Assembly: GCA_902806095.1 (NCBI GenBank)
Contig: CADCVF010000036.1
Span: forward strand, 41,969 to 105,968
From: an uncultured Rubrobacteraceae bacterium
GTDB taxonomy: Bacteria; Actinomycetota; Rubrobacteria; Rubrobacterales; Rubrobacteraceae
Direction of reading: 5' to 3'
DNA: 64,000 nucleotides
Under the pieces are notes generated by a model that saw nothing but the letters and a program-made list of their open reading frames with translations, made no database searches and was not told where the DNA came from. Each line of letters starts with the position of its first letter. The stretch's first letter is position 1. Shown here in pieces: positions 2,310 to 47,041 of the stretch. A program made the position numbers and the translations under genes.

Positions 2310-3185
2310 ATGGCCATACTCGTAGACAATGGGACGCGGCTCCTCGTTCAGGGCATAACGGGCAGGGAGGGCGCGTTCCACACAGGTAGGATGCTTCAGA
2401 GCGGCACTAAGGTGGTCGCGGGTGTAACGCCGGGCAAGGGCGGGCAGGACTACGAAGGCGTCCCTATCTTCGACACCGTCGAGGATGCCGTCCGAGAGAC
2501 TGGCGCGAACGCGAGCGTGATCTTCGTCCCCCCGCCTTTCGCCGCCGACGCCATATTCGAGTCCCTGGACGCCGGACTCTCGACCATCTGCTGCATCACA
2601 GAAGGCATCCCCGTGCACGACATGATGCGAGTCACGAACTACCTGGGGACCAAGGACGCGACACTTATTGGGCCAAACTGCCCGGGCGTACTCTCGCCGG
2701 AGAAGGCGAACGTCTCGATAATGCCCAAGGACATCTTTATGCCAGGCAACGTAGGTGTCGTAAGCCGCAGCGGCACGCTGACGTACCAGATCGTCAACGA
2801 GCTCACGCAGAGGGAGATCGGGCAGAGCACCGCCGTCGGGATCGGCGGCGACCCGATAATAGGGACTGATTTCATCGAGATCCTGAGCAAGTTCGAGGCC
2901 GACCCCGAGACAGAGTGCGCCGTGATGATCGGGGAGATCGGGGGCAACGCGGAACAGCTCGCGGCCGAGTACGTCAAGAGCGAGATGAACATCCCCGTCG
3001 TGGCCTACATAGCCGGCTTCACGGCCCCAGAGGGCAAGACGATGGGACATGCCGGCGCGATCGTCTCTGGCGGCGAGAGCACGGCGGAGGCCAAGAGCGA
3101 GGCGCTCAGGGAGGCAGGCATCAGGGCCGCGACGAACCCGTCCGAGGTCGCCGAGCTCGTCTCCGAAGCGCTCGGTCGGGGCTGA
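2310..3185 (+). CDS. sucD: Succinyl-CoA synthetase alpha subunit
   Basis: Alpha subunit of succinyl-CoA ligase, carrying the CoA-binding domain and the phosphorylated histidine. The 291-residue protein has the N-terminal CoA-binding motif [13 protein letters not shown] (about 13-25), the ligase motif [14 protein letters not shown] (near 120) and the active-site His in [13 protein letters not shown] (near 246). ATG start with GGAAGG upstream. It directly follows sucC. A GC-rich hairpin just after the stop probably ends the transcript. Confidence 0.97.
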
Positions 3186-27993: not shown

Positions 27994-28019
27994 AGCCCCG
28001 GCTCGTATGGGCCGGGGCT
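27994..28019. terminator. Hairpin between UPF0173 gene and cobS
   Basis: AGCCCCGGC pairs with GCCGGGGCT (9 bp, eight-base loop) between convergent genes; no clear T-run on either strand, and the last bases touch the cobS stop. Confidence 0.5.
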
Positions 28020-28749
28020 ATACCGTTGCCGCGAGCAAGACGAGCAACACGGCGCGACACGCCTCCCCGGTCGCCCCTACGAGGTCGCCGCCGATCCCGC
28101 CAAACTTCGACGCGGCGATCCGTAGAGCACCCAGCGTGACTAGGGGTGCCGTCAGGATGGCGAGCGGCGCGAGGGCGCCCGTCGCCAGTAGAAATGGCAG
28201 CGGCGCGAGCAACGCCACGACGATGCTACCGGTACGTCGCGGCCCGGAGAGCGTCTTTACAAAGGGAACGGAGGAAGAACGCGCGTCCGCCGGCTCGCCG
28301 AAGGCAAGCGTTAGGAGCATCGCGGAGCGGGCAGAGACCTCGCCGGCGAACAAAGCGAGCGCCGCACGGCCGGGAGAGGCGGCGCAAAGCGCGGCGAGTG
28401 CGCCAATGGTGGGTGCGTAGACCAGGAAGAGCGCCCCGAGACCACCGATGCCTACGCGGGTGTCTGCGAGTACCTCGCGGCGCCGGTCTGGCGCCCCGTG
28501 GGCCATCAGGGCGTCACCGACGTCGAGCACACCGTCGGCGTGGTGCAGTCCGGCAGCGAGGAGCACGGCCCCGAGCGCCAGGGTGGCGGCGACACCGGGA
28601 GAGACTACGTTGGCCGCCAGTAGCACGACGGCTCCGGGCAATCCCGTCACCAGGCCGAGGAGGGGCAACAGGGGGGCCGCCCGCGCAGCCTCTTCCAGAG
28701 ACGCCCCGCGAACGGGAAGAACCGTGAAAAACGAGAGTAGATCCTTCAA
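28018..28749 (-). CDS. cobS: Adenosylcobinamide-GDP ribazoletransferase (cobalamin synthase)
   Basis: Joins adenosylcobinamide-GDP with alpha-ribazole (or its phosphate) at the membrane to finish adenosylcobalamin. 243 residues, largely hydrophobic, with the conserved HHADGVLDVGDALMAHGAPDRRREVLADTRVGIGG region (near 68-102), which holds the metal-binding Asp residues. TTG start at 28749, directly after the cobU stop. Last gene of the cobalamin block cbiB-cobD-cobU-cobS. Confidence 0.92.
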   Translation of the reverse strand: MKDLLSFFTVLPVRGASLEEAARAAPLLPLLGLVTGLPGAVVLLAANVVSPGVAATLALGAVLLAAGLHHADGVLDVGDALMAHGAPDRRREVLADTRVGIGGLGALFLVYAPTIGALAALCAASPGRAALALFAGEVSARSAMLLTLAFGEPADARSSSVPFVKTLSGPRRTGSIVVALLAPLPFLLATGALAPLAILTAPLVTLGALRIAASKFGGIGGDLVGATGEACRAVLLVLLAATV

Positions 28750-29244
28750 CTACTTTATCCTTATGCCTACCCCGGCCACGCAGAAGTGGACCTCCTCAGC
28801 CGCCTCGGCCGCCCGCTGATTGACCAGCCCGAGTACGTCGCGGAACCTCCTCCCTGCCTCACTCTCCGGCACGACCCCGAGCCCGACCTCATCGCTCACC
28901 AGAAAAAACGGCACGCTGAGGTCCCCGGCCCTGGCCAGGAACCGGTCAAACTCGGCGGGCGCTCGCTCCTCCCTGGCCGAAACCCACAACGTGAGGGCAT
29001 CGAGCAGGACCGCTTCCCAGATCTCCGCCGCGGTAGGGACTTCGTCGAGGTCCCCGATCTCCAGCGTACCCCACCCACGAGGTCTGCGCTCCCTGTGGAG
29101 CCTGACGCGCCGCCGCAGGTCCTCGTCCCCCTCAACCAGGGCCGTCGCCACGTACAGGACACGCTCTCCTCCGAGTGAGAAGGCCAGCCGCTCGGCGAAG
29201 GCGCTCTTGCCGCTGCGGGCGCCGCCGAGTATGAGGGCGCGAAT
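28750..29244 (-). CDS. cobU: Adenosylcobinamide kinase / guanylyltransferase, probable ATT start
   Basis: 164 residues. The bifunctional enzyme phosphorylates adenosylcobinamide and attaches GMP. The P-loop LILGGARSGKSAFAERLA lies upstream of the ORF-track start GTG 29151, and no ATG/GTG/TTG exists in frame before it. GGAGGAG stands eight bases ahead of ATT 29244, giving (M)RALILGGARSGKS, exactly the family N-terminus, so ATT is the likely start. VATALVEGDEDLRRRVRLHRERRPRGW includes the guanylylated-His region. ATT is two bases after the cobD stop, suggesting coupling. Annotations starting at 29151 would lose the nucleotide-binding loop. Confidence 0.88.
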   Translation of the reverse strand: MRALILGGARSGKSAFAERLAFSLGGERVLYVATALVEGDEDLRRRVRLHRERRPRGWGTLEIGDLDEVPTAAEIWEAVLLDALTLWVSAREERAPAEFDRFLARAGDLSVPFFLVSDEVGLGVVPESEAGRRFRDVLGLVNQRAAEAAEEVHFCVAGVGIRIK

Positions 29245-29246
29245 GG

Positions 29247-30317
29247 CTACAGCTCCTCCACGATCGCCGCGACTAGCCGCCCGTTCTCCTCAGCACCCCT
29301 GACCGCGACACGGAAATACTCGGGCCCGAGCCCAACGAAGGGGCCGCAACCCCGCACGAGCACCCCCCGCCTGGCGAGTCGCCCTGGTAGTCCATCAGGC
29401 CCGCGGACGAGCAGGAAGTTCGCGGCTCCGGGAAATGGTTGTAGGCCGGAGAGTGCATCCAGGGCCCCGAAGAGGTCATTGCGCAGGCGGGCCACCTCGG
29501 CTACCGAGGCTTCGGCGAAGCGCCGGTCCCTGACGGCGGCGATCCCCGCGGCGGCGGCGACGGCGTTCACCGGCCAGGAAGGCTGGAACGCCTGGACGCG
29601 TCCGGCATCGTCGCAGACGAGACAGCCGAGTCGCAGACCAGGGATCGCGAAGAACTTGGTGAGAGACCGCGCGACCCAGAGTCCCCTGTCGACCATCGCT
29701 GTGACGCTGATCCCCGGAACGAAGTCGGCGAAGGCCTCGTCGACGACGAGAACGGCGCCGGCCTCCTTTACGCGCGCGGCCACTTCGAGGACTTCGCCGC
29801 AGCCGAGCGAGTCGCCCGTAGGGTTGTTCGGGTTACACAGGAACACAGCAGAGATCCCTTCCAGGTCTTCGAGCGATGTGGGATCCCACCTGAAACCCTC
29901 CTCGTGCCGCCGGGCCACCCTGCGGACGGACTCCGCGCCCGAGGCCCGCGCCGCCGCAGCATACTCCGAGAAGGTTGGCTCGAGCACAAGCGCCCTTCCA
30001 CCCGTTCCTGCCGCCCTGGCTGCGAGGAACAGCGCCTCGGCCCCGCCATTGGTCGGAACGATCATCCCGGCACCGACGCCGAGGTAGGCGGCCAGCGCCT
30101 CGCGCAACCCGGTATATTCCAGGTCGGGATAGCGGCTTGATTCTTCGTCGAGGGCCCGTCGGGCTGCTCTCAGGGCGTCACGCGGCGCACCGAGAGGGTT
30201 TATGTTCTGGCTGAAGTCGAGTAGCTCCCCGACGCGGAAGTCGAGGGACCGCGAGACGAGGTCGCCGTGGGCGCCGTGGTGGCGGTAGCCGGGGTGCTCT
30301 GCCCAGCCTCTAACCAC
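29247..30317 (-). CDS. cobD: Threonine-phosphate decarboxylase (CobD-type PLP enzyme)
   Basis: About 356 residues from GTG 30317, seven bases after GGAGAGG; the ORF-track start lies inside cbiB. Fold type I aminotransferase: LDFSQNINPLGAP near 30, FLCNPNNPTGD near 150, VDEAFADFVPG near 186 and the PLP-binding Lys in ARSLTKFFAIPGLRLG near 215. Makes (R)-1-amino-2-propanol phosphate, the nucleotide-loop linker of cobalamin. It resembles histidinol-phosphate aminotransferase, but its place between cbiB and cobU supports the cobalamin role. Confidence 0.88.
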   Translation of the reverse strand: MVRGWAEHPGYRHHGAHGDLVSRSLDFRVGELLDFSQNINPLGAPRDALRAARRALDEESSRYPDLEYTGLREALAAYLGVGAGMIVPTNGGAEALFLAARAAGTGGRALVLEPTFSEYAAAARASGAESVRRVARRHEEGFRWDPTSLEDLEGISAVFLCNPNNPTGDSLGCGEVLEVAARVKEAGAVLVVDEAFADFVPGISVTAMVDRGLWVARSLTKFFAIPGLRLGCLVCDDAGRVQAFQPSWPVNAVAAAAGIAAVRDRRFAEASVAEVARLRNDLFGALDALSGLQPFPGAANFLLVRGPDGLPGRLARRGVLVRGCGPFVGLGPEYFRVAVRGAEENGRLVAAIVEEL

Positions 30318-31245
30318 GACCAAACCTCTCCGCCAGGAATACCAGAATGCCGACCAACACGCAGGTGCGATGCATGAGATCAACAGCGCGCCTTATATCA
30401 TCATGTACTGGGAGACTTCCATCGCCGAGTATCGGTCCTTTTCGCACCACCCCTCCGTACGCGTTGGCGCCACCGAGCCTGACATCGAGGGCACCGGCGA
30501 AGGCGGCCTCGGCCATGCCTGCGTTGGGGCTGGCTGTGAGTGGGCCGTAGCGAACTGCGGTCAGGAGCGTTCGAAGAGGCCGCCCCGAGATGGCCGCGGT
30601 AGAGACCATCGTAAGCCTCGACGGCGCCAGATTGGCGAGGTCGTCCAGGCGGGCAGGGCCCCATCCGAGGTCCTCGTAGGGAGGTTGCCGGTAACCCAAC
30701 ATCGAGTCAAGGGTGTTCACGGCCTTGTACGCCAGCGCGCCTGGGGCGCCGAAGAGGACGCCGTAGAGCATCGGGGCCACGACACCGTCGCTCGTATTCT
30801 CCGCGACCGATTCCACAGCGGCCCTGCAGATCTCGGATTCAGACAGGTCGCCCGTGTCGCGCCCGACGAAGTGACCCACCCGCGTTCGTGCTCTTTCGAG
30901 CCCTCCGTCGCGCAGCCCGGTCTCCACGTTCCCCGCGGCCTCACCGAGGCCGCGCATAGAGAGCGTGGTGGAGATCAAGGCCGTCCCGATCATCCACCTT
31001 GGTTTGCGGGGCGCGATGCGGAGGACCTTCTGTGTCGAGACGAACACAAGCGTCGGCAAGGAGAGGGCGAGCACGATGCCCGCGAGGCGCCTGGATCTCG
31101 GGCTCTTTAGCCTCAATGCCCCCTTCTCGAAAGCCGAGACCACACGCCCCATCAACACTGTCGGGTGTATGGCTTCTGGAGGCTCGCCGAGCACGGCGTC
31201 CATGAGCAGCGCCGCGACGACCTGTCCTCCTCTCTCCCGACTCAT
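30310..31245 (-). CDS. cbiB: Adenosylcobinamide-phosphate synthase
   Basis: Membrane enzyme of 311 residues that attaches aminopropanol (phosphate) to adenosylcobyric acid. Family motifs: LLMDAVLGEPPEAIHPTVLMGRVV at the N-terminus, AAVESVAENTSDGVVAPMLYGVLFGAPGALAYKAVNTLDSMLGYR (near 142-186) and SPNAGMAEAAFAGALDVRLGG near 240. Four to five hydrophobic helices. ATG 31245 overlaps the previous gene by four bases (ATGA) and its own stop overlaps the cobD start, so translation is coupled through the block. Confidence 0.94.
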   Translation of the reverse strand: MSRERGGQVVAALLMDAVLGEPPEAIHPTVLMGRVVSAFEKGALRLKSPRSRRLAGIVLALSLPTLVFVSTQKVLRIAPRKPRWMIGTALISTTLSMRGLGEAAGNVETGLRDGGLERARTRVGHFVGRDTGDLSESEICRAAVESVAENTSDGVVAPMLYGVLFGAPGALAYKAVNTLDSMLGYRQPPYEDLGWGPARLDDLANLAPSRLTMVSTAAISGRPLRTLLTAVRYGPLTASPNAGMAEAAFAGALDVRLGGANAYGGVVRKGPILGDGSLPVHDDIRRAVDLMHRTCVLVGILVFLAERFGRG

Positions 31246-33414: not shown

Positions 33415-34011
33415 TCAATGCCGGAGCCCGCGTCTTGCCCGCTGAAGATCCCCGGGCGAGTTGACGTTCACCAGCAGAAGGCTGGGGTCCCCGAAACGCC
33501 GTAACTCCACTTCGACATAATCGACCTCGTCAACCCCTTCCAGGAACCCTTTCACAGCCCGCGCCCCGCCGTCGAGATCCGTCTCTATACGTGGCAGCAG
33601 CGCCCTAGCGTAGGCGGCACAGAGCGGGTGCGTTCTGCCCCTGTATCGCGGGACCACGGCCACAACTCTGCTCCTGTCGAGACGTTTGAGTAGATAATCC
33701 ACCATGCTCCGGGTCAAGAAAGGCATGTCACCGGCTGCGACGAAGGTTAGTGGGTGGCGTGCGGAGGCGAGGCCGGCCTCCATGCCGGCCAGTGGGCCAA
33801 GTCCGCCAGGTCGCTCGCCGGTGACGTACCTGACTCCTTCGAGCCTTGCACCGCCATCTCCGACCACGAGTACTTCCTGGCAGCAGCCTGCGAGCACGTC
33901 TCTGACACGTTCGATCAGGGGCACCCCCTCGACCTCCAGGGAGAGCTTCTCGCGTCCCATCCTGCGGCTGGCGCCACCGGCGAGTATTATGCCCGAGGCC
34001 GGACGGCTCAG
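33415..34011 (-). CDS. mobA: Molybdenum cofactor guanylyltransferase, probable CTG start
   Basis: Adds GMP to molybdopterin cofactor. About 198 residues. The GTP-binding loop GIILAGGASRRMGREKL is required in this family, but it begins upstream of the ORF-track ATG at 33960 and no ATG/GTG/TTG is in frame before it. CTG 34011 overlaps the PrsW stop (CTGA), giving (M)SRPASGIILAGGASRRMG, so a CTG start with translational coupling is the best reading; the ATA codons closer to the motif lack any ribosome site. Later motifs: ERPGGLGPLAGMEAGLASA, VAAGDMPFLTRSMVDYLL and HPLCAAYARALLP. Confidence 0.85.
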   Translation of the reverse strand: MSRPASGIILAGGASRRMGREKLSLEVEGVPLIERVRDVLAGCCQEVLVVGDGGARLEGVRYVTGERPGGLGPLAGMEAGLASARHPLTFVAAGDMPFLTRSMVDYLLKRLDRSRVVAVVPRYRGRTHPLCAAYARALLPRIETDLDGGARAVKGFLEGVDEVDYVEVELRRFGDPSLLLVNVNSPGDLQRARRGLRH

Positions 34012-41927: not shown

Positions 41928-42038
41928 GCTGACATGCTGACAAGCGAAGGCCTTAAAGGCCCGAAGCGTGCTGACAAGGCGCGAAGCGCCGTGCTGACTT
42001 GCGAAGGCGTTAGCCTGAGCGTGCTGACTTGCTGACAC
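41928..42038. repeat. GCTGA-octamer element, copy 7, with three different hairpins
   Basis: Units GCTGACAT, GCTGACAA, then hairpin core around GGCCTTAAAGGCC; GCTGACAA, hairpin GGCGCGAAGCGCC; GCTGACTT, hairpin GGCGTTAGCC; GCTGACTT, GCTGACAC. The block lies between uppP and crp and begins two bases from the Crp stop codon. Confidence 0.9.
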
Positions 42039-46282: not shown

Positions 46283-47041
46283 ATCGAAATCACCGTCGTA
46301 GGATCGGGCACCGTAGTTCCACGCCTCGAGAGGCGCCAGAGCTGCGTGGTGGTGCGCGCGGGTTCGCAGACGCTCGTCTTCGACCTCGGTTCCGGCGCGG
46401 TCCGCGGCATGCTCCGGTCGGGCGTGGACCCTCTGGCGGTAGATCGCATCTTCCTTACACACCTCCATCCTGACCATACGGTAGACGTCGTTTCGCTCCT
46501 CTTCGCCATCAACTACGGTGCACCCGAGAAGCGTACCCTGCCCCTCTACGTTACCGGTCCCGAGCCTTTCCTCCGGTTCTGGGGCTCCGTGATGGAGGCC
46601 TGGGGAGAGTGGATGGCCGGCGAACACGCGACGCTCGTCTCCGAGCTGCCTCAGGAGTGTGTATCCCCAATCGTCCTCGCAGGCTGCCGGCTCTCGTGGG
46701 CCCCGGCGGAGCATCGCCGCGAGAGCATCGCCTACAGACTGGATGCCGAAGGTGGCGCCTTCGTATACACAGGTGACACCGAGTACAGCGAGTCAGTCGT
46801 CGCACTGGCACGCGGCGCTGATACCCTCCTGATCGAGTGTTCCTTCCCCGACGAAGCCCCCGTTCCCGGCCACCTGACGCCTTCAGGCGCAGCACGCATC
46901 GCGAGCGAGGCAGGAGTACGTCGTGTGGTACTCACCCACATCTATCCGGCGGCGGACACCATAGACCTCGTCTCTGAGGTAAGCCGCGGATTCGATGGAG
47001 AGGTGATCCTCGCAGAAGACGGTCTGACGCTTACCGTCTAG
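46283..47041 (+). CDS. RNase Z-like metallo-beta-lactamase-fold hydrolase, probable ATC start
   Basis: About 252 residues. Metal motif FLTHLHPDHTVDVVSLLF (near 75), TGDTEYSESVVALARGADTLLIECSF (near 175) and VVLTHIYP (near 223) match RNase Z/YhfI-type proteins. The ORF track starts at GTG 46346, but the conserved first strand (TVVGSGTVVPRLERRQSCVVV) is upstream with no ATG/GTG/TTG after the in-frame stop at 46253. AAGGGAG stands five bases before ATC 46283, giving (M)EITVVGSGTVVP, so ATC is the likely start (ATC 46280 is the alternative). Cytoplasmic, substrate unknown. Confidence 0.82.
   Translation: MEITVVGSGTVVPRLERRQSCVVVRAGSQTLVFDLGSGAVRGMLRSGVDPLAVDRIFLTHLHPDHTVDVVSLLFAINYGAPEKRTLPLYVTGPEPFLRFWGSVMEAWGEWMAGEHATLVSELPQECVSPIVLAGCRLSWAPAEHRRESIAYRLDAEGGAFVYTGDTEYSESVVALARGADTLLIECSFPDEAPVPGHLTPSGAARIASEAGVRRVVLTHIYPAADTIDLVSEVSRGFDGEVILAEDGLTLTV

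Follow-up and report, generated by a model that had tools for sequence, protein, structure and literature searches.

The cobU Locus and Its Reading Frame

The window analysed here is a stretch of 64,000 nucleotides from an uncultured Rubrobacteraceae bacterium (GCA_902806095.1, contig CADCVF010000036.1, forward-strand positions 41,969 to 105,968), whose genome, a draft assembly in 85 contigs, is called G000 in the comparisons below. Its minus strand carries cobD, cobU and cobS in this order; codons of cobU are numbered backward with the first Gly codon of the P-loop as reference, so that ATT is codon -6 and GTA is codon -8.

29247..30383, minus strand: cobD, threonine-phosphate decarboxylase (TIGR01140, 285 bits)
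29253..29259, minus strand: GGAGGAG, Shine-Dalgarno-like, within the end of cobD; GGAGG is 4 nt from GTA and AGGAG 8 nt from ATT
29248..29250, minus strand: GTA, proposed cobU start, codon -8 from the P-loop, with TA common to the cobD stop
29247..29249, minus strand: TAG, cobD stop, read from the sequence
29242..29244, minus strand: ATT, codon -6, the start in the first-pass annotation; a start-type codon is not conserved there
29206..29229, minus strand: GGARSGKS, CobU P-loop (sequence motif)
28750..29250, minus strand: cobU frame if started at GTA 29250, 166 aa, stop TAG 28752-28750 (PF02283, 150 bits)
28018..28749, minus strand: cobS, TTG start immediately 3' of the cobU stop (TIGR00317, above cut-off)

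After the cobD stop TAG the minus strand reads CC and then ATT CGC GCC CTC ATA CTC GGC GGC GCC CGC AGC GGC AAG AGC, which is translated from ATT 29244 as (I)RALILGGARSGKS. The open cobU frame extends over 21 codons above the P-loop, 15 of them above ATT, and none is ATG, GTG or TTG; a mechanical caller begins the gene at GTG 29151, and the resulting product of 133 aa lacks the P-loop. The first-pass annotation had stated that cobU needs a non-canonical start, that the usual caller start removes the P-loop and that ATT lies two bases after cobD with GGAGGAG (29259-29253) eight bases before it, and all three statements hold.

CobU, the adenosylcobinamide kinase/guanylyltransferase of vitamin B12 synthesis, matches PF02283 over positions 2-168, that is, its whole length, and NCBIfam PRK05800 with 151 bits, slightly below the strict cut-off of 161; the gene is present in single copy in the genome. 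The P-loop GGxRSGKS is found in the cobU frame and is conserved across Rubrobacteraceae, and its translation hinges on a non-canonical start. Provided that GTA is this start, the GTAG at 29250-29247 constitutes a four-base start/stop overlap with cobD. An Rfam scan of the window for a riboswitch or other RNA found none.

Absence of a Canonical Start in Much of the Family

The family sample comprised 40 Rubrobacteraceae genomes, 30 of which have cobU, and a canonical start at this site is absent in 22 of the 30. In the cobU genes of other groups, ATG, GTG or TTG occurs between codons -25 and -4 relative to the P-loop in 87 of 89 cases, the other two being without. In G000, G008, G003, G015, G026 and G034 a stop lies within about 25 codons upstream with nothing canonical between; the frame of G061 is likewise closed upstream, and its sole canonical codon, GTG, stands two codons ahead of the P-loop. 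The dN/dS of cobU between close pairs is 0.12-0.24, and the CobU protein is thus maintained by purifying selection. No canonical start is available above the essential P-loop motif, and this state has been kept across 22 species.

A Chloroflexota MAG (L061, about base 3001) holds a further cobU whose P-loop is preceded by 25 codons free of canonical starts.

Position of the Start Codon

The cobD stop begins exactly 23 nt before the Gly codon of the P-loop in 25 species, as TAG in 21, TAA in one and TGA in three. At the same 23-nt distance the early-branching relatives G011, G017 and G018 have TGA, which makes their codon -8 ATG or GTG and gives the usual four-base overlap. In the 22 non-canonical species codon -8 is GTA (20) or ATA (2): the penultimate cobD codon supplies its first base with its own last one, and TAG or TAA supplies its TA, giving the overlap RTAG or RTAA. 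In particular, G018 reads GGAGGAGCT GTG AGC GTG CGG GCG CTC and G000 reads GGAGGAGCT GTA GCC ATT CGC GCC CTC, while G013, which has retained a TAA stop, reads GTA AGC and represents an intermediate. On the tree one change suffices for the non-canonical state, the branch concerned having weak support. A Shine-Dalgarno register lies 4-7 nt from codon -8 in 22/22 species, close to the genus mode.

Some of this regularity is imposed by cobD, since the T and A of codon -8 are dictated by the stop and the independent information consists only of the first base and the fixed register. TAG is moreover a common stop here (43-47%), so that its retention alone is weak evidence.

The first-pass annotation placed the start at ATT 29244, that is, at codon -6, two bases past the cobD stop, where GTT, GTC, GTA, ATC or ATA is found in most relatives. 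An AGGAG eight bases upstream and the natural N-terminus MRALILGG speak for this position, as do the Val and Ile codons without a final G found there (17 Val cases) and the ability of GTC and GTT to start translation, shown for sigR (PMC5472188). A second Shine-Dalgarno register, giving codon -6 a good spacing of 7-8 nt and so weighing against codon -8, exists in about one third of the species, G000 included; in the remaining ones (about 14), in contrast, codon -6 sits only 10-13 nt from the Shine-Dalgarno sequence. The codon itself varies: among the same 22 species it is GTC in 8, GTT in 7 and GTA in 2, the others having ATT, ATA, ATC, CTC (G061) and GGG (G062), and G017, which must use GTG at codon -8, has CGG at codon -6. 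None of the 17 Val cases is GTG (P about 7e-5 if species are taken as independent); this avoidance is only suggestive, because there are about 15 Val columns, among which this one is the most extreme and the next has 1/19.

The position evidence across the clade favours codon -8, although ATT may still serve in G000, and the start is probably GTA 29250 rather than ATT 29244; initiation at codon -6 throughout is considered unlikely. The part of the first-pass annotation that concerned ATT itself consequently stands only as a possibility for G000, the position being occupied by GTT in the closest relative, at 93% identity, and by CTC and GGG in the two species named above. Likewise the alignment with homologues, which it had proposed as a check, bore out the missing canonical start (22/30) but pointed to codon -8, with RTA in 22/22 species.

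Reinitiating ribosomes might also choose loosely near the cobD stop and use both GTA and the codon at -6, yielding products that differ by two residues. Two weak candidates do lie close together in most species, and those with GGAGGAG possess two Shine-Dalgarno registers; yet in two species codon -6 does not resemble a start, and this dual use is judged somewhat less probable still than codon -6 by itself.

The production of CobU as a CobD-CobU fusion through -1 frameshifting before the cobD stop would fit a cobU frame that is -1 to cobD and devoid of a canonical start. A slippery heptamer of the form X XXY YYZ is, however, absent from the last 12 cobD codons in all of the 22 species searched (0/22), and the site carries an ordinary RTGA start in sister species, which makes the fusion very improbable. 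A sequencing error or a dead gene, conceivable in a draft of 85 contigs, is hardly credible given that 21 further species, partly in separate assemblies (JACCSM010000112.1, CADCVE010000007.1), also have no canonical start and that cobU is under purifying selection; hence of the two findings by which the first-pass annotation would have been overturned, an ATG in the resequenced strain is unlikely and a non-functional cobU is contradicted by the dN/dS values. A canonical start inside cobD with a resulting N-terminal extension, as at the NTG present at codon -41 in many relatives, can be practically discounted, this NTG being a by-product of the cobD codons GGN TGC in the other frame and being followed by stops before the P-loop in G000, G008, G003, G015, G026, G061 and G034; as a cobU start in G000 it was ruled out by the in-frame stop.

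The infC Start and the Initiation Apparatus

The infC gene, which encodes IF3, starts with GTA in 27 and with ATA in 1 of 28 readable Rubrobacteraceae genomes (G000:C6:11275-11481, minus strand, L163; L147-L176), and GUA is therefore evidently usable as a start in this family. In the family, GTA GCN opens infC after AAGGAG or GAGGAG, and an in-frame stop frequently lies only a few codons upstream, while in other families of the phylum ATA, ATC, ATT or GTC is found at the same place. An altered initiator tRNA was considered and rejected: the one found is normal, with anticodon CAT. The parallel with infC and IF3 drawn in the first-pass annotation was thus apt, and cobU would share both of its start codons with the IF3 gene. 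In a literature search, no paper was found that deals directly with infC initiation at GUA or with the start codons used in Rubrobacter.

Proposed Mechanism

The preferred reading, held with a confidence somewhat better than even, is that the cobU gene is intact and that its translation begins at a non-canonical codon, GUA 29250-29248 (replaced by AUA in two relatives), which overlaps the cobD stop as GUAG and is reached by cobD-coupled reinitiation. Its observed basis is the absence of canonical starts, the conservation of this state, the equal position, the intact enzyme and the GTA of the family infC; from these we infer initiation at GUA, coupling to cobD, weak output and sensitivity to IF3. 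The ribosome that finishes cobD would be retained by the GGAGG within the cobD end, and a short shift would place in the P site the codon that begins one base ahead of the stop, where reinitiation at GUA with the ordinary initiator tRNA would give fMet-Ala-Ile-Arg-Ala-Leu-Ile-Leu-Gly-Gly. The ancestor probably had a canonical GTGA or ATGA overlap; once TGA gave way to TAA and TAG as the cobD stop, the G common to both codons would have turned into A and the start into GTA.

In E. coli GUA is not known to be a better start codon than ATT. For ATT, measurements in that organism gave 0.3% of ATG, which speaks against the preferred reading; four-base overlaps are a typical geometry for termination-reinitiation (PMC10666635). 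Overproduction of IF3 in E. coli lowers reinitiation and inhibits non-canonical starts (PMC2268962). That less CobU than CobD is made, and that this depends on IF3, is plausible by analogy, since IF3 effects are known in E. coli reinitiation and in Streptomyces sigR.

Comparison with Known Systems

The sigR gene of Streptomyces has a GTC start repressed by IF3, with GTC in 32 and GTT in 2 of 34 species (PMC5472188). As in cobU, a gene of Actinomycetota has a conserved non-canonical start behind a good Shine-Dalgarno sequence; in contrast to cobU, with its GTA or ATA codon, sigR encodes a regulator, its start lies outside a stop overlap, and control by IF3 has been demonstrated for it. The family infC shares the codons GTA and ATA with cobU, whereas infC is subject to self-feedback via IF3 and CobU is a metabolic enzyme with no such loop. 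The ATGA and GTGA overlaps (PMC10666635) have the same geometry, and their ordinary form occupies the cobU site in G011, G017 and G018; the difference resides in the TAG or TAA stop, which forces a non-canonical RTA start. The E. coli recJ mutant with a GUA start (Haggerty and Lovett 1997, cited in PMC2268962) resembles the reading proposed for cobU in its translation from GUA, which in recJ is influenced by IF3, and differs in being a laboratory mutation as opposed to a conserved natural start.

Other Non-Canonical Start Candidates

A small orthologue screen, in which 400 kb of G000 were compared with 800 kb of G006, yielded 139 testable pairs; candidates were read by eye and mobA alone was traced through the family, the resulting share of about 4% being a rough figure. 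The mobA-like gene (window positions 33415-34011, minus strand) has no ATG, GTG or TTG before its LAGGASRRMG motif, and its CTG at 34011-34009 forms a CTGA overlap with the stop upstream; this CTGA recurs in 19 genomes of the family, a canonical codon closer to the motif being available as well in some of them. The screen suggests that the lineage may be tolerant of weak starts in general, and such a lineage-wide tolerance would leave less need for a regulatory explanation specific to cobU.

Besides cobU and the mobA-like gene, the screen pointed to further candidates. An MBL-fold (RNase Z-like) gene (window positions 46283-47041, plus strand) has a conserved N-terminus with ATC at 46283 and TTG in G006. 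In G000 an opuAA-like gene and two ABC-transporter genes (L268:1778-3085, minus strand; L269:15646-17481, plus strand; L269:12789-14585, plus strand) have N-termini conserved above the first canonical start: the opuAA-like gene has ACG after AGGAGG, one ABC-transporter gene has ATC after AGGAGG, with ATC also in G006, and the other has CTG versus TTG. The same screen against G030 returned mostly broken or antisense frames, and in G030:C1:1930001-2730000 (L219-L258) many genes are apparently frameshift-broken in comparison with G006, a pattern like that left by assembly indels.

Implications

To our knowledge few natural genes have starts other than ATG, GTG or TTG, and gene callers miss them. 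The cobU gene is a metabolic gene with no canonical start in at least 22 species, whose sisters display the canonical ancestor and whose codon is that of the family's IF3 gene; the first-pass observation was correct and wider than one window could show, and a link of cobU to IF3 is plausible and now has a family-specific basis. The site offers a clean test system for the choice of start codon by reinitiating ribosomes. Standard callers truncate or wrongly extend CobU throughout the non-canonical group and, if the small screen is representative, the N-terminal annotation of the lineage needs revision. It may be proposed, as a tentative and rather doubtful generalization, that GUA serves Rubrobacteraceae as an IF3-gated start in both infC and cobU, which would tie a late step of B12 assembly to the state of an initiation factor, and that non-canonical starts (GTA, CTG, ATC, ACG) occur in several percent of their genes, hidden by gene callers.
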